A DNA stretch of 64,000 nucleotides from Fibrobacterota bacterium (lineage in GTDB: Bacteria; Fibrobacterota; Chitinivibrionia; Chitinivibrionales; Chitinispirillaceae). The stretch is from NCBI GenBank assembly GCA_003164335.1, contig PLTF01000060.1, forward strand, positions 1 through 64,000, written 5' to 3'. A model generated the notes under the pieces. That model was not told where the DNA came from and searched no databases. It saw only the letters and a program-made list of their open reading frames with translations. This document shows, in pieces, positions 36,300 to 62,814 of this stretch (position 1 is the first letter of the stretch; each line of letters starts with the position of its first letter). The translations under genes were made by a program, and so were the position numbers.

Positions 36300-37562
36300 A
36301 TGAAAACTACCGTTATTAAATGCTGTGTCGAGTCCTACAGTCTGGTACTCGAAGCAATTCGCCGATGCGCCCTGCCGTTTCTCGCTCGAACCGGAAGGAA
36401 AAGGGGATGGAATCTTGTCGAAAGACAAAGCCTGCCGAACGTCGTGCGGAAGCATCGATCGCGCGCCGTTGTCTGGGTGCATGCGGCATCGCTTGGTGAA
36501 GCCAAACTGCTGCAGCAGTTTTTGACCATGCTCGAAGCGCGCAACCCCGACGATTGCTATGTGGTCACGGCTACCTCGCGAAGCGGTGTCGACTATTTGC
36601 AGCGGTTAAAGGACGCGTCGGTTATCGCCGTAGGCTTTCTGCCGATCGATACGCTTCCGCTCATGAGGTCGCTTCTTCATACCTTTTCGATTTCGCGCGT
36701 CTGGCTGCTTGAAACGGAATTGTGGCCGTCCATGCTGTATGCCTGTTTTTCCGCGGGTATTCCGGTGGGGATCGCCAATGCCCGGCTGGAGGAACGATCA
36801 TTTTCCAACTATCAACGGGTCTCCGGAATCGTCCGATCGTTTATGCGCCGCCTCGATGTCGTCCTCGTCCAGAACGACACGTATGCAGGCCGTTTCCTTA
36901 AACTCGGCGTACGGGCCGAAACGCTTCACATCGTGGGTAATATCAAAGGGTATATCCGGATTAGCCGCCCGCCTGCCCGGGAAAGGACCGCCTTGAGGCG
37001 GCAGCTTCGCCTTCTTGACCGGGATATCGTCATTACTGCCGGCTGTGTACATAAAGGAGAGGGAACGGTACTGCGGATCTGCCTTGAGGAACTTAAGAAA
37101 CATGGCCGGTCATGCAAGTGCATTGTAGTTCCCCGCCATCTGGATGAATCCGAGGCGATTGCCGGGGAGCTGGGGCCCGCAGCCAGGCGGCTTTCCGATA
37201 TCGAATCCCGGGAAGCCTTCGAGGTATGCGTCATCGAGAAACTCGGCATTCTTGACAATATGTATCTTCTTGCGGATGCGGCCGTTGTCGGGGGTACCTT
37301 TGAGAATATCGGCGGCCATAATGTCTGGGAACCGGCGCGGTTCGGCATCCCGGTTTTCTTCGGGCCCTATTATTACTCCCAGCACTCAGGGTGTGAAAAG
37401 CTGCTCGCGGCCGGCGTCGGATTCAAAGCAACCGACGGCATGGAGCTCGCCTCCATCGCGGAGCGGTTTCTCTGGATCAACCCGGAGAAATTCTCGGGTG
37501 CCGCAGCGCTCTTCGCCGAGCAGATGAACCAGCAGGATATCCTTGAACCGCTCATACCATGA
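36300..37562 (+). CDS. waaA: 3-deoxy-D-manno-octulosonic acid (Kdo) transferase
   Basis: A 420-residue GT-B glycosyltransferase. It transfers Kdo from CMP-Kdo to lipid A precursor at the inner membrane. The family signatures are VWVHAASLGEAK near residue 57, LLETELWPSMLYAC at about 137, IPVGIANARLEERSF, and the C-terminal GGTFENIGGHNVWEPARFG (about 330) that contacts the nucleotide sugar. Its presence implies a lipopolysaccharide outer membrane. It overlaps holA by the ATGA tetranucleotide. Confidence 0.93.
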   Translation: MKTTVIKCCVESYSLVLEAIRRCALPFLARTGRKRGWNLVERQSLPNVVRKHRSRAVVWVHAASLGEAKLLQQFLTMLEARNPDDCYVVTATSRSGVDYLQRLKDASVIAVGFLPIDTLPLMRSLLHTFSISRVWLLETELWPSMLYACFSAGIPVGIANARLEERSFSNYQRVSGIVRSFMRRLDVVLVQNDTYAGRFLKLGVRAETLHIVGNIKGYIRISRPPARERTALRRQLRLLDRDIVITAGCVHKGEGTVLRICLEELKKHGRSCKCIVVPRHLDESEAIAGELGPAARRLSDIESREAFEVCVIEKLGILDNMYLLADAAVVGGTFENIGGHNVWEPARFGIPVFFGPYYYSQHSGCEKLLAAGVGFKATDGMELASIAERFLWINPEKFSGAAALFAEQMNQQDILEPLIP

Positions 37563-48389: not shown

Positions 48390-50366
48390 TCATCTGGGGG
48401 CGGGTAATGCTCCCGGGAAGGAATCCGACGGGGCGGCTTTCAAACAAGCGACTGCTTTGGCACAGGCCCGGAGGGATAGCGAATCGTCCCTGTTCATCGA
48501 AAGCGCCATTTTCAGGTCGCGAACCGCGGCATTACAAAGTCCCTTCTGCAGAAAAGCGATGCCCCTGTTGGAATAAAGTGCTTCAGCATAATTCGGATCT
48601 TGTGCAATAACCGCGGATAAATCCGAGATAGCAGCGTCCCAGTTCCCAATGGTTGCATAGAGTATTCCCCGATTGGCGCACGCATTGAGGTTGGCAGGAT
48701 CCAGTTCAAGCGCCCGGGTAAAATCCGCAATGGCAAGATCGTATCGGCCGATGCTGCCATAGGCAATTCCCCTTTCATTATCAGCCAGCGGATGGCGGGC
48801 ATCAAGCGCCAATACCCTGGTAAAGTCGGCAATGGCCGGTTCATGCTTCCCCATATTTTCATATGCCAGGCCGCGGGCATTGCAGGCATTGACGTTTCCG
48901 GGGTCAAGCCGGATCGCCCGGGAAAAATCCTCGATTGCCAGGTCGTGAGCTCCGATGACCTCGAAAGCCGCAGCGCGATTTGCAATGGCACTGCCGTAAT
49001 CGGGCTTTAAAGCAATGGCCTTTGAAAAATCTTCGATTCCCTTATCGTATTGTTTTTTTTCGCAATAAGCAAGCCCGCGATTCATATAGCCCTGCAGTGC
49101 GGAATGCGGAAAATTATTGATGGCGTCGTTCCAGAGGCTGAAATTGTCTTCCCACACGCGGCAACGCTGAAAGGTCAGGCAGACCACTATAAACAATATT
49201 CCGAGAAGCAGAGTAAACCGCAGACGATATCCACGGCGGTTCTTTCCGGTCGATCGCAGGAAATGCTCTCCGGCCACTCCGCAAAGGAGAGCGAATCCGA
49301 TCATCGGAATATAGGAATACCGGTCTGCAACCATGGAAACCCCAATCGGGATAATCTGCAGAACCGGAAGAAGCGTAACGAGGTAAAAAAGCGATGCGAA
49401 CACGAGGGTTTTTTTCAGGGGGCCGCGATACAGGACGATTGCCGTACCGATCGCCAGCGTGACAACCGGAGCGAAGTACAGCCGCAGGGACAGGGCAGGG
49501 TCGTGGTTGAAGGGAAAGGGGTAAACCGCCGAAAGATGGACCGGGAGGATGAATTTAATGAGGTAAAAAACCAGCCCGTAAAATGGGACACAAAGACGCT
49601 GCACGGCCAGCATTGAAGGGTATTCGTGAACAGCCCCGGAGCCCCGTTGAATCATAAATGCCAGGATCGCAAATCCGGAGGCAGTGAAAAAAAACGGCAA
49701 TTTCTCAGCTATTCCCCGGAGCGAAAACCTCCTGTTGCCGAGGTAGTCGATGAGGAGAAGAGCGAATGGCTGACTGACGGCCATGGGCTTCGACAATAGT
49801 GACAGCACAAGCGAGAAGAAACAGAGAAAATAATACTGCAGGCCTTTTTTTTTCACAAATGTTACATACAGAAGCATCGAGAGGAGATAAAAGAAAGAGG
49901 AAAGGACATCTTTTCGCTCGGCTATCCAGGCCACGGATTCAACCCTGAGCGGATGGATTGCAAAAACCAGAGCGGCAAAAAGCGCTGCAGCCCGGCTTTC
50001 GGTCAGGCTGAAAACGAGCAGGAAAAGAATAATGCAAGTGCAAATGTGCACGAGGAGGTTCGTGCAGTGAAAGGCAGCGGGATTCAGGCCGAAAAAGTGG
50101 TACTCCGCCATGTACGTCAGCATTGTTACCGGCTGATAATTGCTTAAACAGGCGGAAGAAAATACCTTTTTAACATTCTCTATATTGAATACGCGTATAT
50201 CGCGATTATCGACGACCGACTGAGGATCGTCCCAGTTGGTGAACCCATTCCGCAGCGAGGGCGAAAAAGCAATCAGCGTTACGACCGCAATGAGCGCTCC
50301 GAAGAGTGCGGTACGACGGCCGTTTGTGTTCGAGGCCGACAATTTCACGATGGGGCGATGCGGCAT
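48390..50366 (-). CDS. TMTC-like integral membrane protein with six C-terminal TPRs
   Basis: About 658 residues from the ATG at 50366; the open frame extends 61 codons upstream and the start is uncertain. Residues 1-420 are a multi-pass domain with the signature FTNWDDPQSVVDN (DD loop) after helix 1 and AIHPLRVESVAWIAERKDVL, as in bacterial relatives of eukaryotic TMTC O-mannosyltransferases. The last 240 residues hold six consecutive tetratricopeptide repeats (for example GLAYENMGKHEPAIADF and ANRGILYATIGNWDAAI). Such proteins are presumed to glycosylate or scaffold periplasmic targets, but no substrate can be assigned. Confidence 0.82.
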   Translation of the reverse strand: MPHRPIVKLSASNTNGRRTALFGALIAVVTLIAFSPSLRNGFTNWDDPQSVVDNRDIRVFNIENVKKVFSSACLSNYQPVTMLTYMAEYHFFGLNPAAFHCTNLLVHICTCIILFLLVFSLTESRAAALFAALVFAIHPLRVESVAWIAERKDVLSSFFYLLSMLLYVTFVKKKGLQYYFLCFFSLVLSLLSKPMAVSQPFALLLIDYLGNRRFSLRGIAEKLPFFFTASGFAILAFMIQRGSGAVHEYPSMLAVQRLCVPFYGLVFYLIKFILPVHLSAVYPFPFNHDPALSLRLYFAPVVTLAIGTAIVLYRGPLKKTLVFASLFYLVTLLPVLQIIPIGVSMVADRYSYIPMIGFALLCGVAGEHFLRSTGKNRRGYRLRFTLLLGILFIVVCLTFQRCRVWEDNFSLWNDAINNFPHSALQGYMNRGLAYCEKKQYDKGIEDFSKAIALKPDYGSAIANRAAAFEVIGAHDLAIEDFSRAIRLDPGNVNACNARGLAYENMGKHEPAIADFTRVLALDARHPLADNERGIAYGSIGRYDLAIADFTRALELDPANLNACANRGILYATIGNWDAAISDLSAVIAQDPNYAEALYSNRGIAFLQKGLCNAAVRDLKMALSMNRDDSLSLRACAKAVACLKAAPSDSFPGALPAPR

Positions 50367-50661
50367 GGTGTCGAAGTGCCGGGCTTCCCGGCGGATTGCA
50401 GATATTCGGACCGATCTCATCGAAGGGTTATTGACCGGTAATCCGTCGTTATAAAGATACCTTGTGAAATAGAGTGCACGATGTTCGAATGAGGCACGAC
50501 CTCGGTGAGGAAGCCGCCTGCCGGGCATAAATCCCTTCGTCCTTACCAATTCTGTCCTATAAGTAGTATTTTTATTTCATCACTCTCTGAATCCACAATT
50601 TAATTTTAACTGCCTTTTGCCGCAGTATCCTGAAATACTATCCATTTTCCGGGAGTTTCGT

Positions 50662-54267: not shown

Positions 54268-54739
54268 TTTTCAAAAATAGTATTTAGGGGTGCCCGCCGA
54301 TTTGCCCGGGCATGAAGTACACCTGCGAATTCCTTGCGAAATCACGATGTGGTCGCCCGCGAGCAAAAAGCACTATATTATAAATTCGCTCTTGCGAAAC
54401 GGTTCCCTGACAAAAAAATTCTATCCGGCGCCAAGGATCAATGCCCCCGCTCCTGCCCGCCGTCCTATCTCGGGAAGGGATAATCATAAGCGGGCATAGA
54501 TTCAACCGGCACTAAAAGATAGAATCTTTTTTCCATTACTCGGTTTTGATATTATATTTCAAATATGAAGCGGGGGTTCGTTTTTTTTTGGGGGCAGGGA
54601 AGGGAAGTTCCGGCTCCATTATGTCTGCCTGGCATTCAAAATGCCGTTAATAGATTATCCTTGCAAAACATGGGCATAAAAGATAAAATCTTTTTTCAAT
54701 GAGTTAGGCGACTTTTTTTTGCGCGGGTTAAATGAGATC
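54268..54739. other. 472-base intergenic region upstream of the polysaccharide locus
   Basis: It holds two near-identical AT-rich hairpins, AAAAGAT-AGA-ATCTTTT at 54514-54530 and AAAAGAT-AAA-ATCTTTT at 54678-54694, each followed by TT. The second overlaps a promoter-like -10. No supported open frame lies here. The repeated palindrome could be an operator for the exopolysaccharide operon. Confidence 0.5.
54661..54689 (+). promoter_or_regulatory. candidate sigma-70 promoter of the exopolysaccharide operon
   Basis: TTGCAA (54661-54666), a 17-base spacer, then TAAAAT (54684-54689), about 50 bases upstream of the first polysaccharide gene. The -10 overlaps the left loop of an AT-rich hairpin, which would suit repression at this site. 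Confidence 0.4.
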
Positions 54740-55429
54740 ATGACCTTTTCAAATAATAAGGCGTTCGGTCTCGGCAAAGTAATCCCGATGATCATCGCCA
54801 TGGCAGGCGCCGTGATTTTCCTGCTCAATGCGACTGCGGCGGCAGAGGGCGAAGAATACGTCCTGAAGCCGGGAGATGTGATTTCCGTGAATGTCGTTGA
54901 GCATGAAGAATTCTCCGGTCGCCATAAGATCAGGCCCGATGGCCGGATAAACTATCCGGTCATCGGGGAGCTGGATGTCGCCTCGCTTACCTGCGCCCAG
55001 CTCGTTAAAATCATGGAAAGCAAGTTGTCCCCCTATGTGAATAATCCCGTGGTTTCGATTTCGATTGAGGCATATTTTGCCAACAAAATCTTCATCATCG
55101 GTGATGTCAATCGTCCCGGTGAATTTGAAATTTATGAACCTATCGATTTAATCAAGGCACTCGCCATGTGTGGCGGGCAGAAAAACGCCGGTGCGCGGAT
55201 CGCCAAAATTATCAGGGCCGACGGCACTATCATTTCGGTCGATCTGCTCGACCTTTGTAACGGGAAGATGTCGAAACTTGAAACCAACAAATTCCTGCTC
55301 TACCCGGGCGACACCATATTTATTCCGGAAACGTTTATCTTCAACTGGGGTGTTCTAGCCGCCATTCTTAGCGCCGTAGCTCTTGCCCTGGAGATAGCCC
55401 TGTACGCAATCTGGATTAACGATCGCTGA
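54740..55429 (+). CDS. Wza-like polysaccharide export protein
   Basis: A 229-residue protein from the ATG at 54740; a TTG at 54719 adds 7 residues. A signal segment (VIPMIIAMAGAVIFLLNATAAAEG) is followed by a poly-export domain starting YVLKPGDVISVNVVEHEEF with IRPDGRINYPVIGELDVA. An SLBB-like domain follows (IFIIGDVNRPGEFEIYEPID). The C-terminus is a membrane helix (WGVLAAILSAVALALEIALYA), the feature of Wza channels that cross the outer membrane. Together these point to outer-membrane export of an exopolysaccharide or capsule made by the locus downstream. Confidence 0.9.
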   Translation: MTFSNNKAFGLGKVIPMIIAMAGAVIFLLNATAAAEGEEYVLKPGDVISVNVVEHEEFSGRHKIRPDGRINYPVIGELDVASLTCAQLVKIMESKLSPYVNNPVVSISIEAYFANKIFIIGDVNRPGEFEIYEPIDLIKALAMCGGQKNAGARIAKIIRADGTIISVDLLDLCNGKMSKLETNKFLLYPGDTIFIPETFIFNWGVLAAILSAVALALEIALYAIWINDR

Positions 55430-55600
55430 GACGAGACGACGACTCTTAACGGCTTATCGGCGGTGGATGCGTTGGAGCGAGGGACCCCTCCTGCAAGCAG
55501 GTCAAATACCGGATTGAACCATGGAAGGTTGGCCTTACGCTGGAAAGCGATGGTATGCGCTTTAAAAGAACCGGATTCGGGATTACGGAGATAGCAGGCT

Positions 55601-56455
55601 ATGGGGTATATCGAATTCTGGGAATTAACCGAGAAGCCCTTTGAAGAAGTAAGCGACACCAGATTTTTCTTCGAGAGCGAGGGTCACCGGGAAGCGCTCG
55701 ACCGGATGCTCTATGTTATCAACGACCGGAACATGAATATCGGTCTTCTTACGGGAGAGATCGGGTCCGGAAAAACACTCCTCAGAAATGTATTTTTCGC
55801 CTCCCTGCCGCCGCCGCAGTTCGAAATAATAGAATTTGAAAATTCAAATTATGCCTTTGAGGACCTTCTTTTCGACGCTGTTGAACGTATTGCATCGGCA
55901 CACCAGCATGCTCCTCCGGCAGGCGTTGGCCAGATTCCCGTCAGGGGCGATAAGTTTGCTCTCATGCGGCTTTTCCGGGCTCAGCTCGAATATTTGCGGT
56001 ATGAAGAAATGCGCCATCTGGTAGTGCTCTATGATGAGGCGCAGCAAATGGACGATGGTGCTCTCGACGAGGTGAAAAATTTTACGAATTTTACCGCTCG
56101 TGAGGAGAAATTTCTTACCGTATTTTTTGTAGGTCAGCCCGAGTTGCGGGAAAAAATCAAGCGTCTTCGTCAGCTTGACCAGCGTATTTTACTGCGGTTT
56201 CACCTCAACAATCTCGATTTCAGTAATACTGTCGGGTATATCGATCATCGGCTCGGGGTGGCGGGAAGATCGAAAAACGGCGTTTTCACCGAATCGTCCC
56301 TTGAAATGATTTTCCGGGCCACCGGCGGCGTTCCCCGGGAGATCAACCGCCTCTGCAAGCTTGCCCTGCATTACGGCTTTGCCCATGACCTCTCCACGAT
56401 TTCAATCGATGACATCCAGGCAATCCTCGATGACATGAAAGCCCAGGGCGGATGA
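55601..56455 (+). CDS. ExeA-like AAA ATPase associated with exopolysaccharide assembly
   Basis: A 284-residue AAA ATPase. Walker A is GEIGSGKTLL near residue 51, Walker B LVVLYDEAQQMDDGAL near residue 140, and a sensor/Arg region FFVGQPELREKI is followed by RATGGVPREINRL (sensor 2-like). ExeA/GspA-type ATPases of this size occur beside tyrosine autokinases in exosortase-linked exopolysaccharide loci. They have no peptidoglycan-binding domain, and neither does this one. It overlaps the kinase gene by ATGA, so the two are coupled. The exact role is unknown. Confidence 0.9.
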   Translation: MGYIEFWELTEKPFEEVSDTRFFFESEGHREALDRMLYVINDRNMNIGLLTGEIGSGKTLLRNVFFASLPPPQFEIIEFENSNYAFEDLLFDAVERIASAHQHAPPAGVGQIPVRGDKFALMRLFRAQLEYLRYEEMRHLVVLYDEAQQMDDGALDEVKNFTNFTAREEKFLTVFFVGQPELREKIKRLRQLDQRILLRFHLNNLDFSNTVGYIDHRLGVAGRSKNGVFTESSLEMIFRATGGVPREINRLCKLALHYGFAHDLSTISIDDIQAILDDMKAQGG

Positions 56456-59400
56456 AATCGAAGAAATTCAGTTTCAGCGAAATAATCAGGAAAATCAATG
56501 CTGATCCCGATCGGCCCTCCGAAGCCTCACCGAAGGCTCCCGGAGATGCATCAGGAGCGGCACCGGGAGATTCGCAGCAGCCCCTGCATTTCATTCATGG
56601 CGACGACCATCAGTTGCCCCCTTCCCAGAAAAGGCCTGCGGCGGCATCGGGAAAAGCCGAACCATCCGGCCCGGCAGCGAGAAATTCCGCGTCGCGATTC
56701 CGCACGGGTAAGGTAGACGACGAGGAAGAGCTCGAATTCGACCTTTTCAGGTATCTCGGAATCATCCTTCAGCGGAAAAGGCCGGTTGCTTTCGTTGCCC
56801 TCATCATCACCGCCTTCTGCATATTCCAGTATGTCAACAGTGAGAGGCTCTACACGGCCCATGCCCAGTTGCGGTTCAAACCGGAAGACAAGGAACTTAT
56901 CGGCGAAGAGAATCTTCACAATCCCGGGAACCAGGAGACCGCCCTCAATACCCATCTTGAACTGCTCAAATCAAATACCGTGCTCTCCATCGTCGCCGAC
57001 AGTCTTGGCAATCGGGTTCACCCGGGCCAGATTGAGCGCTATCTGACAATCGCTCAGGGGCAGACGAACCGGGAGCGGAATGACCTTATCGAACTTTACT
57101 ACCAGAATCCGGATGCCAGGCTTGCCCGCGATGTGCTGAACGTATTGTGCCAAACCTATATCAACTACCAGAAAGAGGTAAACGCCCAGGAAATCACCAC
57201 GCTTCTGGGAAAGCTCGAAGAGCAGATTAATAAGTTTCAGGCCGAGCTGGATATAAAGGAAGGCGACCTTCGGCAGTTTAAAGAAGACAATCGCATGGTG
57301 GAACTCTCCGATGAGACGAATCTGACCGTTTCGAAACTGTCGGATCTGGAGCTCGATCTCCAGAAAACCCAGATGAATCTCCTTCAGGGCAGGCAAAAAG
57401 ACCTGGCGGTGTCCTCGCAGATAAGCCAGCAATCACCTGATGTAGTACAGTCGGTTACGTATATCGATCCAACCAAAGACAAACTTGCACAACTTGAACT
57501 GGAATACAATACCCTGTCAGCCGAAAACAGTCCCGAGCACTTCAAGGTCAAGATTCTGCGAAATCAGATCGAGAAGCTCAAAGCCTCCGGGGCCGACAGC
57601 ATGACCCGTGAGGCCTCTTCCAAGACGCTCGTCAGTAATCCCATCCGCCAATCGCTCCTTCAGGATAAGGTCGACTGGAACGTCGACCGTTCATCCCTTG
57701 AGGCAAAACGCCAGGCACTGACCGGGGAGATCGAAAAATTGAACGGCGAACTGCATAAGCTGCCCGCCGTGCAGCAGCGGTACGCATTTCTGGAACGGGA
57801 GACGGAGTCGCTCGTTCAGACGCTCAAGCTTCTTAAGTCGAAGCAGGCCGAGGCGCAGGTCCAGCGGGATGCCCAGAAAATAGATATTATTATCCAGAAC
57901 CGGGCGTTGCTTCCGACGCAGGCGGTCCCGAGCGTTAAATTCATCACCATAATCATGGGGCTTATCATCGGCCTCATATTCGGCATCGGACTTGCCTTCC
58001 TCCTCGAATACCTGGATCAGAGCGTCAAGGACCCCATTCAAATCGAGAAAAACCTCGATCTGCCGCTTCTGGGCATTGTGCCGGTCATTGAAACCAATAA
58101 GGCGCTCATCCAGCAGTTTGCCGACCTGGAGAAGAAAATTCTCGAACCGTTTCGTTCGCTGCGGGCGAACCTGAAGCACCTTGCGGTAATGCACAACAGC
58201 AAGGTGTTCATGATATGCAGTGCAATCAAGGGAGAAGGCAAAACCACGCTTGCCGCCAATCTGGCCATTACCTTTGCCGTTGACGGAAAGAAAACCATTC
58301 TCGTTGACGCCGACCTGCGGCGATCACAGATGCACTCGCTTTTTGCAATCCCGAAGGAACTCGGCCTGACCGACTATCTCCTCGGCACCGCAACGGTTGA
58401 CAATGTACTCAAGAAAACCGAGCTGGACAACTTGTCGCTCATCACCTCGGGCGAACGCCCGCATAATCCTGCGGAACTGGTCGGCACCTACCGGTTCGAC
58501 CTTCTGGTCAAGGAGCTGCGCGACCGGGCCGACATTGTAATTTTTGATTCCCCAGCAGTTCTGCCGGTCAGCGATGCGTTGACTATGGCGCCGAAAATGG
58601 ACGGCTGCGTCATGGTATTCAGGACCAATTGGACACCCCTGAAGGCCGCCAAGCAGGCCAAGCATCAGATCTCCCGGCTCGGGTGCACCATATTCGGCGG
58701 AATTTTCAACGGTGTATCGCTGCATCGCAGTTACTATCCGTACTACTATGGGTATTACGGTTATTATTCCTATAGTAAATATACCTATGACGATGAGAAG
58801 AAAAAGGGGCCGGCGCTCCGGGAATTAGGACTTCGCCTTGAAAATGGTTTCAGGAAGGGTATATTGACGATCCGGTACGGTTCGCCAAAATTTCTTGCCG
58901 CGGCCGGAACTTTCGGCCGGCGCATTGCCCGGAAAAGATTCATCCTCCTGCTTCTTCTATGCGGGATATCGGCCGCAGGATTATGGTATTTAAACCATTC
59001 ATCCCGCGCGGCAACGGTAAAAGGCCATGTCGAAACCGCAGGAACCGCCGGAGTGCCGAAAAGAGCCGGCGCGTCGCTGTCGACGGTAAGCGATACCGCG
59101 TCCATTATGTCCGATACCATGCTCCCCGATCCTGAACAAAAGGGGAGAATACCCTTGACTCCTGTTTCCGGAACCGGGCTCTGGTTCAATGCACTGAAGA
59201 CAGCGGACCTCGATGGATATCTCAGTCTTTACGATACGGCCCAGTTTAAATTTTCCGGCGGTGATTTTGGAAAGTGGCGGGACCGGGCCAGGACTTATTT
59301 TGCCAGAAACCGGGGCGCATCGTATAAGCTGGACACCATTTGGCGGACGATTGCCCCGCCTCCCCTGATCGAAACCCGCCTCAGGCTGACCATGGTGAGC

Positions 59401-59496
59401 GGCTCCGATACTTTACGGATCATAAAAGCGCTCTCATGGAAAAACGGCAACGACAGCTGGAAGATCATCGGTGACCAAACCGGTCGTGCAAGATAG
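56452..59496 (+). CDS. Wzc/BY-kinase tyrosine autokinase with C-terminal NTF2-like domain
   Basis: A 1014-residue inner-membrane protein. TM1 (about 110-127), a large periplasmic Wzz/coiled-coil region (about 130-490), TM2 (about 495-518), then the cytosolic kinase: Walker A SAIKGEGKTTLAANL at about 588, A' KTILVDADLRRSQM, Walker B ADIVIFDSPAV. A run of tyrosines (YPYYYGYYGYYSYSKYTY) at about 761-779 is the autophosphorylation cluster where such proteins normally end. Here about 235 more residues follow: a third membrane helix (ILLLLLCGISAAGLWYL, about 830-846) and a fold at about 910-1010 with NTF2/SnoaL character (DGYLSLYDTAQFKFSG, then DSWKIIGDQTG). This fusion is not typical of Wzc. Confidence 0.9.
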   Translation: MKSKKFSFSEIIRKINADPDRPSEASPKAPGDASGAAPGDSQQPLHFIHGDDHQLPPSQKRPAAASGKAEPSGPAARNSASRFRTGKVDDEEELEFDLFRYLGIILQRKRPVAFVALIITAFCIFQYVNSERLYTAHAQLRFKPEDKELIGEENLHNPGNQETALNTHLELLKSNTVLSIVADSLGNRVHPGQIERYLTIAQGQTNRERNDLIELYYQNPDARLARDVLNVLCQTYINYQKEVNAQEITTLLGKLEEQINKFQAELDIKEGDLRQFKEDNRMVELSDETNLTVSKLSDLELDLQKTQMNLLQGRQKDLAVSSQISQQSPDVVQSVTYIDPTKDKLAQLELEYNTLSAENSPEHFKVKILRNQIEKLKASGADSMTREASSKTLVSNPIRQSLLQDKVDWNVDRSSLEAKRQALTGEIEKLNGELHKLPAVQQRYAFLERETESLVQTLKLLKSKQAEAQVQRDAQKIDIIIQNRALLPTQAVPSVKFITIIMGLIIGLIFGIGLAFLLEYLDQSVKDPIQIEKNLDLPLLGIVPVIETNKALIQQFADLEKKILEPFRSLRANLKHLAVMHNSKVFMICSAIKGEGKTTLAANLAITFAVDGKKTILVDADLRRSQMHSLFAIPKELGLTDYLLGTATVDNVLKKTELDNLSLITSGERPHNPAELVGTYRFDLLVKELRDRADIVIFDSPAVLPVSDALTMAPKMDGCVMVFRTNWTPLKAAKQAKHQISRLGCTIFGGIFNGVSLHRSYYPYYYGYYGYYSYSKYTYDDEKKKGPALRELGLRLENGFRKGILTIRYGSPKFLAAAGTFGRRIARKRFILLLLLCGISAAGLWYLNHSSRAATVKGHVETAGTAGVPKRAGASLSTVSDTASIMSDTMLPDPEQKGRIPLTPVSGTGLWFNALKTADLDGYLSLYDTAQFKFSGGDFGKWRDRARTYFARNRGASYKLDTIWRTIAPPPLIETRLRLTMVSGSDTLRIIKALSWKNGNDSWKIIGDQTGRAR

Positions 59497-59554: not shown

Positions 59555-60889
59555 TTGAAAACGCGGGTGCTGTGCCTTATCATCTTCGTATGGCAGACCG
59601 GCGGAATTGCTCAAACGCGTCTTAACGAGAGCAATCTTTCCGGCACTCGCCTCGAATCCTTTTCGGGCGAAATTATAGTTACCGCAATCGGCAATCGGCA
59701 GGAGCCGCCGAAGGCCGGAATGGTTTTGCGGACGGGCGATGAAGTGCAAACCCTCGGATCGGCACAATCCGAAGTCGTTATCGGATCAACTGCCCGTATT
59801 GTAAGCGACGAGTTCTCAGATATTATCCTCGATCGTATGGAAACCGGGTCGGATGGCGGGTCAAACTTCACTATCCGGCAGAAAAGCGGCAGCTGCTGGT
59901 ATAAGGTGGGGCAGAGCGGCTCCTCCGGTGAATTCCGGATTGCGACGCCTGTTGCATCGGTTACCGCCGGGGGAAAAGCGACCAATTTCCTTCTCGATGT
60001 GCAAACCGACCGGATATCCCTTTCCTGTATCGGAGGGACGGTCCATGCCGAAATGAATGGGAGTGCCGAATCGGTCAATCTTCAATCCGGACAGACCGTC
60101 ATAGCTTTTGCCGACGGAAGGCCGTTCCAGCTCTCGCGGTCCGCTCCCGATCTCGGGGTTGCCGAGCGGTCTCTGCAGGCTGCTCCGGGCGGATCTCCCG
60201 CTCCGCGTGATACCGCTGCCAGGAATGGAAAAATCCGAGACAAGACCGATCAGCCATTCACCGTGCTTATTTGCGGACCTCCCTACTTTTTCGGCGTAGT
60301 AAGCTTTCAGCCCGATAGAGGAGTTGTGTACATTGTGCAGATTCCGTCCAACCTTCATGTTGAAGAGTATGTTCAGGGGGTCGAAACCCTTAACCAGGCG
60401 TATAATTACGGAGGAGCCCCGCTGGTTGCATCACTCCTGGAACCGCTGTTCGAGGTGCATCTTGTCAAATATGCCGTAATTACAAGGGCCACCGCCGGGC
60501 AGCTGGTACATCAGATCGGTGCAGTAATTGCAATTTCGGGAAATGATTCTTCTCACATGGGGAGCAGCGACCTCATGAGGTATCTTCCCACGGGCAACCC
60601 TTCATCTGACGACGATCAACGGCGCGTTGAAGCGGTTATGGACGCACTGTTCGACGGTCTCCATGACCAGAAAATTACGCTTACCATGCCTATGGTCCAG
60701 GGACTGCTGAGCTCCATGAATACCAATATCGATGCCGGGGAACTCATGGCCTGCTGTGCCAGGTTCCGTACCGGAACGGGCTTGACCCGGCGGAATCTTA
60801 TCTTGCCGACCATTGAAAAACAAAAAGAAGGAAAGTATTTCAACGATCCCGATGAAATTCGCTGCCGTCAAATCCTCAATGGTAATTGA
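59555..60889 (+). CDS. FecR-domain protein with degenerate LytR-CpsA-Psr-like half
   Basis: A 444-residue secreted protein from the TTG at 59555; a GTG at 59471 overlaps the kinase stop and would add a long non-signal n-region. The signal peptide (VLCLIIFVWQTGGIAQ) is followed by a FecR-type beta domain (residues about 40-150: LRTGDEVQTLGSAQSEVVI, later VTAGGKATNFLLDV). The C-terminal half (about 235-375) reads like an LCP domain: VVYIVQIPSNLHVEEYV, NQAYNYGGAPLVASLL, DDDQRRVEAVMDAL. The catalytic Arg/Asp positions (SIPRDT) appear lost. LCP enzymes attach polymers to a surface acceptor, so a structural role in polymer handling is suggested. Confidence 0.72.
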   Translation: MKTRVLCLIIFVWQTGGIAQTRLNESNLSGTRLESFSGEIIVTAIGNRQEPPKAGMVLRTGDEVQTLGSAQSEVVIGSTARIVSDEFSDIILDRMETGSDGGSNFTIRQKSGSCWYKVGQSGSSGEFRIATPVASVTAGGKATNFLLDVQTDRISLSCIGGTVHAEMNGSAESVNLQSGQTVIAFADGRPFQLSRSAPDLGVAERSLQAAPGGSPAPRDTAARNGKIRDKTDQPFTVLICGPPYFFGVVSFQPDRGVVYIVQIPSNLHVEEYVQGVETLNQAYNYGGAPLVASLLEPLFEVHLVKYAVITRATAGQLVHQIGAVIAISGNDSSHMGSSDLMRYLPTGNPSSDDDQRRVEAVMDALFDGLHDQKITLTMPMVQGLLSSMNTNIDAGELMACCARFRTGTGLTRRNLILPTIEKQKEGKYFNDPDEIRCRQILNGN

Positions 60890-60922: not shown

Positions 60923-61789
60923 ATGAAACTTCTGGTCGTCGGCCATACCGGCATGCTGGGATCCGACATGCTTCTCGCTGCACGGAACGCGGGCCATGAG
61001 GCCTCAGGAATTGACTATCCGGACATCGACATCACCCGTCAGGAGAGTATCCGTGCCTGCCTGGGCGAAATCAGGCCGGACGCGGTCATCAATTGCGCTG
61101 CTTTTACGGCTGTGGATGCCTGCGAGACCGAGGTCCGCAGGGCATTTTCAGTTAATGCCGAGGGGGCCGGGTTCCTTTCCCTTGCCGCCAAGGAGGTTGG
61201 GAGCATTTTTGTGCATTACAGCACCGACTATGTTTTCGATGGGAATGCAACGGTTCCCTATGGAGAGTCGGATCCAACCGGGCCCCGAACCGTCTACGGC
61301 AGATCGAAACTTGAGGGGGAGCGGCTTGCCGGGGCGAATAATGACCGGACCTTCATCATCAGAATCGCCTGGCTGTACGGAACCACCGGCACTCATTTTG
61401 TAAAAACCATACGGGAATTGGCGAAGAAATATGAAACAACCGATTCGCATATCAGGGTGGTAAATGACCAGATCGGATCCCCCACCTGCACGCTCGATGT
61501 TTGCTCCCAGACGCTCACCCTGCTCGAAACCGGTCGTTTTGGCCTGTACCACGGTACGAGCGAAGGCCAATGCTCATGGTACGACTTCGCCGGGGAGATC
61601 GTCCGCGCAGCCGGTTTTAAAACGATTGTCGATCCGTGCACTACTGCCGAGTTTCCACGACCGGCACCGCGCCCCGCATGGAGCGTGCTGGAAAATGCAG
61701 CGCTTAAAAGGCTCGGGCTCAACCGCATGCCGCATTGGAAAGAGGCATTTTCAGCCTTCCTTGAGCGAGAAGTGCAATCCCCGTTGTGA
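60923..61789 (+). CDS. rfbD: dTDP-4-dehydrorhamnose reductase
   Basis: A 288-residue short-chain reductase that makes dTDP-L-rhamnose, a common exopolysaccharide and O-antigen precursor. The Rossmann motif is KLLVVGHTGMLGSDML at the N-terminus. It also has YSTDYVFDGN and the catalytic YGRSKLEGE (YxxxK) near residue 127. The ATG is preceded by a GGAGA site. It lies directly downstream of the polysaccharide assembly genes and next to rfbB. The other two pathway genes (rfbA, rfbC) are not seen in the window. Confidence 0.95.
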   Translation: MKLLVVGHTGMLGSDMLLAARNAGHEASGIDYPDIDITRQESIRACLGEIRPDAVINCAAFTAVDACETEVRRAFSVNAEGAGFLSLAAKEVGSIFVHYSTDYVFDGNATVPYGESDPTGPRTVYGRSKLEGERLAGANNDRTFIIRIAWLYGTTGTHFVKTIRELAKKYETTDSHIRVVNDQIGSPTCTLDVCSQTLTLLETGRFGLYHGTSEGQCSWYDFAGEIVRAAGFKTIVDPCTTAEFPRPAPRPAWSVLENAALKRLGLNRMPHWKEAFSAFLEREVQSPL

Positions 61790-61809
61790 GAGGTTATTTT
61801 TCTACCACT

Positions 61810-62814
61810 ATGAAAAATATTCTCGTAACCGGCGGGGCCGGCTTCATCGGTGCCAATTTCGTTCACCATCTTCTCAATCGCCGGGACGACCTTCGCGTCA
61901 TCAATCTCGATGCACTTACCTACGCGGGAAATCCGGATAATCTCAGATCCGTTGAACACGATCCGCGCTACCGGTTCGTTAAAGGCGACATCCGGGACGT
62001 GAGCCTGCTTACCGCTCTCTTTGCGGATTACGGGATCGATACGGTTGTCCATTTTGCAGCCGAGTCCCATGTCGACCGAAGCATTACCGATCCCGACCGG
62101 TTTGTTCAGACCAACATTCTCGGAACCCACACGCTTCTTCGCGTTGCAAGAACATCGTGGCACGATAAATTTGACAAAGTGCGGTTCCTGCATGTTTCCA
62201 CCGATGAAGTCTACGGCTCGCTCGGTCCGGACGGCTACTTCACCGAAGAAACACCTCTGGCGCCGAACTCTCCCTATTCGGCCAGCAAAGCCGGCAGCGA
62301 TCTCATGGTCCGGGCGTACTGCGAAACGTTCGGCTTCCCAGCCATCATCACCCGATGTTCCAACAATTACGGCCCTTATCAGTTTCCGGAAAAGCTTATT
62401 CCGCTCATGGTCACGAATGCCCTGCTGGACCTTTCGCTCCCGGTTTACGGCGATGGTTTGAATGTACGCGACTGGCTATTCGTCGGTGACCACTGCGCGG
62501 CCATAGAAACAGCAATTCTGAAAGGCGCTCCCGGGCAGGTATATAACATAGGCGGCAATAATGAAAAGCGCAATATCGATATTGTTCGGCTTATCCTTGC
62601 CATGCTTGGCAAACCGGATCGTCTCATCGACTTTGTGAAAGATCGTCCGGGCCACGACCGGCGGTACGCCATCGATGCTGCCAAGACCCGGCGCGACCTC
62701 GGTTGGTCACCGTCGGTGACCTTTGAACAGGGGATCGAGCAGACAATTGCCTGGTACCGCAATAATCGTGAATGGTGGGAAAGGCTTCGGAAAAGTTCCA
62801 CCGCAGAGCACTGA
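61810..62814 (+). CDS. rfbB: dTDP-glucose 4,6-dehydratase
   Basis: A 334-residue NAD-dependent dehydratase producing dTDP-4-keto-6-deoxyglucose. The glycine-rich motif is ILVTGGAGFIGANFVHHLL near the N-terminus, with HVSTDEVYGSLG (catalytic TDE) and PYSASKAGSDLMVR (YxxxK) near residue 156. The ATG at 61810 is preferred. A GTG at 61786 overlaps the rfbD stop but gives eight extra residues without a better ribosome site. It acts upstream of rfbD in rhamnose synthesis. Confidence 0.95.
   Translation: MKNILVTGGAGFIGANFVHHLLNRRDDLRVINLDALTYAGNPDNLRSVEHDPRYRFVKGDIRDVSLLTALFADYGIDTVVHFAAESHVDRSITDPDRFVQTNILGTHTLLRVARTSWHDKFDKVRFLHVSTDEVYGSLGPDGYFTEETPLAPNSPYSASKAGSDLMVRAYCETFGFPAIITRCSNNYGPYQFPEKLIPLMVTNALLDLSLPVYGDGLNVRDWLFVGDHCAAIETAILKGAPGQVYNIGGNNEKRNIDIVRLILAMLGKPDRLIDFVKDRPGHDRRYAIDAAKTRRDLGWSPSVTFEQGIEQTIAWYRNNREWWERLRKSSTAEH

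Follow-up and report, generated by a model that had tools for sequence, protein, structure and literature searches.

A candidate non-catalytic LCP-fold protein, fused to FecR and encoded beside Wzc in polysaccharide export loci of Fibrobacterota

LCP (LytR-CpsA-Psr) proteins are Gram-positive enzymes which attach sugars to the cell wall. LCP, FecR and SLBB are all known domains, and an inactive-looking LCP has one reported example in the literature searched. Polyprenyl pyrophosphate is a ligand of LCP domains, and lipid remains bound in an Arg mutant of Wzg/Cps2A (PMC11337229, PMC7831098). A natural LCP-fold protein, EUBSIR_01389 (4OBM), is reported to be without the four conserved Arg residues and one Asp (PMC11337229). 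Fibrobacterota is not among the eight phyla listed for LCP proteins (PMC7831098). How Wzx/Wzy systems transfer polymer between the inner membrane, with its polymerase and Wzc, and the exporter of the outer membrane is not settled. Searches of the literature for LCP together with SLBB, with Fibrobacter or as a pseudoenzyme, which left most subscription journals outside their reach, returned no relevant paper; within the same limits no account was met of a three-domain SLBB-FecR-LCP protein that belongs to a Wza/Wzc system and is inherited with it. No experimentally studied homologue of the protein described here was found.

The window analyzed is a stretch of 64,000 nucleotides from contig PLTF01000060.1 of a Fibrobacterota bacterium. 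Near its end lies an operon in the order Wza, XrtA-type ATPase, Wzc, FecR-LCP fusion, RmlD, RmlB (Table 1), with the fusion gene directly 3' of the Wzc-type gene. The fusion frame is open over 444 codons from a TTG start at 59555 to a stop at 60887-60889, and an in-frame GTG at 59471 is an alternative start. A scan for promoters and terminators gave no more signals than were obtained with shuffled sequence.

Table 1. Features of the export operon and of the FecR-LCP fusion (window coordinates).
Feature	Position	Strand	Evidence
Wza-type polysaccharide export protein (Poly_export + SLBB)	54719..55429	+	PF02563 1.6e-20; TIGR03027 4.6e-27, below cut-off
XrtA/PEP-CTERM-type AAA ATPase	55601..56455	+	TIGR03015 1.3e-49, below curated cut-off
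Wzc-type polysaccharide co-polymerase/tyrosine autokinase, extra TM segment and C-terminal NTF2-like domain	56452..59496	+	TIGR01007 1e-46; Wzz/GNVR; Cds6_C 5e-4; TM near residue 829
FecR-LCP protein, 444 aa: short hydrophobic N-terminus, FecR, linker, LCP	59555..60889	+	ORF; Pfam/NCBIfam; model; Foldseek
Short hydrophobic N-terminus VLCLIIFVWQTGGIAQ, signal peptide or short anchor	59567..59614	+	alignment A1; hydropathy
FecR domain core, residues 65-163	59747..60043	+	PF04773; Foldseek
Degenerate LCP domain, residues 235-444	60257..60886	+	PF03816/TIGR00350; family profile vs LCP PDB chains; model
CGPPY, site of deleted loop with one Mg-binding Asp and one Arg	60272..60286	+	comparison with LCPs from other genomes
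IPSNLHV where LCPs have SIPRDTxV; both Arg and Asp substituted	60341..60361	+	alignment
AYNYGG, LCP motif retained, two Gly family-invariant	60398..60415	+	alignment
DDDQRRV at the DxGRxxRQ site: catalytic Arg substituted, RQ Arg kept, Gln to Val	60608..60628	+	alignment
RmlD, dTDP-4-dehydrorhamnose reductase	60923..61789	+	TIGR01214 above cut-off
RmlB, dTDP-glucose 4,6-dehydratase	61786..62814	+	TIGR01181 above cut-off

Taken singly, the window protein gave weak profile matches that were suggestive of both domains: PF04773 (FecR, Pfam) at E 1e-4 to 6e-4 and PF03816 (LytR_cpsA_psr, Pfam) at 1.6e-4 to 6e-4, each slightly under its curated cut-off, and TIGR00350 (NCBIfam) at 1.2e-5, far under its own. 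The call becomes firm with the profile and structures of the relatives. The relatives include 24 genomes with an LCP match above the Pfam cut-off, and an alignment of 22 sequences (A1, window protein included), used as a family profile against the PDB, found LCP crystal structures with E from 1.2e-14 to 7e-8 and no other entry below 0.02. The AlphaFold model of the window protein (mean pLDDT 70.4, pTM 0.47) matched LCP structures (1.1e-10) and FecR-type domains (2.7e-8) in Foldseek, the FecR part finding BDI_1681 and PupR. A relative, L043, was modelled at pLDDT 82 and matched LCP and FecR-type structures plus the SLBB structure of ComEA. Across the window and relative models the LCP matches ran from 1e-10 to 1e-13 and included 4OBM (Eubacterium siraeum EUBSIR_01389). 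A chance match to LCP is ruled out by the family profile and the structure comparison, and the FecR-LCP fusion named in the preliminary description is borne out by profile and fold alike.

A single-sequence search of the genome contigs with the window protein returned no match; the alignment-based search did. Across 101 genomes, 100 of them relatives and one the window's own, matches to the fusion were obtained in 26, mostly full-length relatives at 26-38% identity, and the records of the named relatives are Chitinispirillaceae, Chitinivibrionales and other Fibrobacterota. In A1 at E<=0.1 the LCP domain was detected in 22/22 members, FecR in 22/22 (best 5.8e-10) and SLBB in 21/22, the window protein being the one member without SLBB, so that the full architecture of the family is TM-SLBB-FecR-LCP, with SLBB-FecR-LCP as the ancestral domain order; the preliminary description did not include the SLBB domain. 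Among 168 Fibrobacterota genomes an LCP match at E<=1e-3 was present in 25, every site lying within this fusion, and no other LCP protein was detected at that threshold. These results add to the published list a further phylum with LCP-fold proteins. A wider search of 392 genomes extended the matches into other phyla.

The active site was compared between 27 sequences (26 of the family and a protein of another phylum, G284, L094:7286-8617) and five LCP proteins of other genomes, four with the full motif set and one partly divergent; the roles of the catalytic residues were taken from PMC7831098 and PMC11337229. The loop carrying the first, Mg-binding Asp and one Arg was deleted in all 27 sequences, which leaves no member with two Mg-coordinating Asp. 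The column of the second Asp held D in 2/27, in a register that is uncertain near the deleted loop. Of the catalytic Arg residues, that of SIPRDT was kept in 2/27, the first and second of VRxR in 3/27 and 1/27, and that of the GR motif in 1/27; nearly all are replaced across the family and none is present in the window protein. The GG pair was retained in 27/27, and the RQ Arg in 24 of the 25 sequences with letters at that position. Within the LCP half of A1 just two charged residues are invariant, E296 and R357 (window numbering). The motifs picked out by eye in the preliminary description (IPxxxxVE, NxAYxYGGxxL and DxxRRxEAVMDAL) do align with LCP motifs, and the inactive look it had given to this half, from the missing catalytic Arg and Asp, proves true of the whole family. 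Judged from the aligned residues, the family is an LCP fold without LCP chemistry, and the loss of the catalytic residues is family-wide.

An active transferase working with another set of catalytic residues would agree with the fold, with the polysaccharide locus and with the acidic residue that stands at the SIPRDT Asp position in 12/27 sequences. We consider it very improbable, given the Asp/Arg loop deleted in every member, the presence of only two invariant charged residues and the report that single Arg-to-Ala changes abolish transfer by TagT (PMC11337229). The absence of the catalytic loop from every sequence led us to discard an active enzyme as the main explanation.

Our main reading is that the protein is a non-catalytic LCP-fold subunit or adaptor of a Wza/Wzc-type export machine which would hold lipid-linked polymer, to which we give a probability of roughly 0.45. 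The N-terminal helix of the relatives would anchor the fusion in the inner membrane; the SLBB domain, presumably periplasmic and of a type that the neighbouring Wza contains as well, and the FecR domain would dock it to the Wzc/Wza assembly. The LCP fold, stripped of its phosphotransfer residues, would be the site at which the growing polyprenyl-linked glycan, or its lipid, is held, and the fusion would pass polymer between the polymerase/Wzc and Wza. The fuller version of this proposal, in which a membrane-tethered SLBB-FecR-LCP protein is an undescribed, regularly co-inherited, non-enzymatic Wzc/Wza component holding lipid-linked polymer, is put forward more tentatively. Loss of the pyrophosphate-contacting Arg residues could also weaken lipid binding.

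The nearest rival is a purely structural role, in which the LCP fold is a protein-protein module (a scaffold, or a modulator of Wzc chain length) that binds neither lipid nor polymer. Nearly all ligands of pyrophosphate and Mg are lost while the structural-looking GG and RQ are kept, SLBB and FecR could well mediate interactions and the protein is co-inherited with Wzc, all of which this role would explain. The LCP domain is, however, conserved about as well as FecR (mean majority identity 0.59 vs 0.64), hydrophobic core segments included, which fits a retained pocket and does not prove one; we hold the structural role to be unlikely, if still a serious competitor. Typical members accumulate changes at about the low rate of Wzc, and the domain is therefore constrained. 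Of the readings considered, the polymer-binding adaptor remains the most favoured, the binding of polymer or lipid being its conjectural element. That relatives keep a dead version of the LCP fold beside an export pump suggests its reuse as a non-enzymatic machine part.

The FecR domain also brings in a sensor or regulator, with FecR acting as in anti-sigma cell-surface signalling and the LCP half sensing polymer to adjust its synthesis. It does match the anti-sigma regulators PupR and BDI_1681, but no anti-sigma or TonB-receptor neighbour was seen in the operon, and FecR-type matches are abundant in the phylum and may in part have functions other than signalling; we regard such a role as improbable.

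Related loci kept the order of the window operon, Wzc-fusion(-Rml) included, up to the contig ends, with RmlD or RmlB unmatched in some, and usually had space for another gene between Wza and the ATPase. In the two loci read (L036 and L040) this gene was ParA/MinD-like, and in a distant lineage (G041) the order was Wza-ParA-Wzc-fusion. The ParA/MinD-like gene (L036:4720-5634) is absent from the window at 55430-55600, and no ortholog-level match to it was obtained in the window genus (G000, G001).

Among the 40 genomes of the window's taxonomic order, the fusion, a strong ATPase match and a strong Wzc match were found in the identical 23, and Wza in those 23 plus one further genome that is 68% complete (G030). 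At this locus in two genomes (G004, G009) ParA-RmlD-RmlB was kept and Wza, the ATPase, Wzc and the fusion were all gone. These counts come from related genomes that are not independent and from few loss events, and a Fisher test on them ignores relatedness and is not readable as a probability. Co-inheritance of the SLBB-FecR-LCP fusion with Wzc, Wza and the ATPase supports its assignment as a putative non-enzymatic part of the export machine, and with it the adaptor idea of the preliminary description, whose polysaccharide locus was likewise recovered as Wza, XrtA-type ATPase, Wzc, RmlD and RmlB. As a pseudo-enzyme of lipid-binding fold, inherited along with these three proteins, the fusion would be a concrete candidate for polymer hand-over. 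A link of the ParA/MinD-like gene to the fusion was ruled out, since no match to it at ortholog level was obtained in the window genus and it is retained where the fusion is lost.

Other features of the window were recorded. Residues ~829-1014 of the Wzc-type protein (window 56452-59496) carry an extra C-terminal TM segment, and its NTF2-like domain (Cds6_C, E 5e-4) is present in the two relatives tested too. Tyrosine autokinases normally end in a Tyr-rich tail, and a C-terminal TM segment with an NTF2-like domain is unusual. The gene at 48390-50549 (-) is predicted to encode a glycosyltransferase-like membrane protein (weak PMT_2 match) that also contains a TPR array. A Kdo-transferase N-terminal domain at 36300-37562 (PF04413, 3e-44) fits an LPS-type outer membrane; together with the Fibrobacterota records of the named relatives it agrees with the outer-membrane organism proposed from the sequence earlier.

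The window copy itself diverges from its relatives. It has lost the SLBB domain and about 9 residues of the LCP half, and deviates at 18 of 53 near-invariant columns. Its identity to relatives is 29-33%, against 43-75% among the relatives themselves, whereas the similarity of the window's Wza and RmlD, and largely of its ATPase and Wzc, to relatives is about that of the relatives to each other. Its N-terminal hydrophobic stretch is shorter (hydropathy 1.36 vs 1.45-2.86 in relatives) than the TM helix of the relatives, which leads into their SLBB domain. On these comparisons it is an atypical, unusually fast-evolving member of the family, seen in one metagenome-assembled genome, and its divergence points to a relaxed or changed constraint. 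The role of the fusion may be reduced in the window's own species because SLBB is lost and divergence is fast. Whether the gene there is a decaying, functionless remnant is a separate matter, compatible with any reading of the family. The missing SLBB domain, the missing ParA-like gene, the changed residues and the low identity all speak for decay. Against it, the frame is intact, the GG and the RQ Arg are kept, the model is foldable and the adjoining genes are normal, and in a single metagenome-assembled genome the loss of SLBB could be an assembly error; we judge decay to be improbable.

Among known systems, the XrtA/PEP-CTERM exopolysaccharide modules (TIGR03027, TIGR03015, TIGR03007/03018) resemble the window's Wza, ATPase and Wzc, all with scores below cut-off. 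They differ in that no exosortase (PF09721, E<=1e-3) was found in the window's own genome, on which an exosortase partner was set aside, and to our knowledge an LCP-type fusion is not part of the described XrtA/PEP-CTERM export set. The G284 protein shares the SLBB-LCP order and the shortened loop but lacks FecR, and no Wza or Wzc adjoins its gene in the stretch read; by eye, the neighbours of that gene include MotA/MotB-like genes. EUBSIR_01389, compared as an LCP-domain structure only, is like the fusion a natural LCP-fold protein missing catalytic residues. The LCP transferases (TagT/TagU/TagV, Cps2A/Wzg, LcpA) share fold and profile with the C-terminal half of the fusion, and an N-terminal membrane segment with its relatives. 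In contrast to them the fusion is without the Mg-binding Asp loop, has its catalytic Arg replaced and carries SLBB and FecR rather than the usual accessory domain. In the pneumococcal capsule locus the position of cps2A, beside the tyrosine-kinase/co-polymerase gene, is comparable to that of the fusion.
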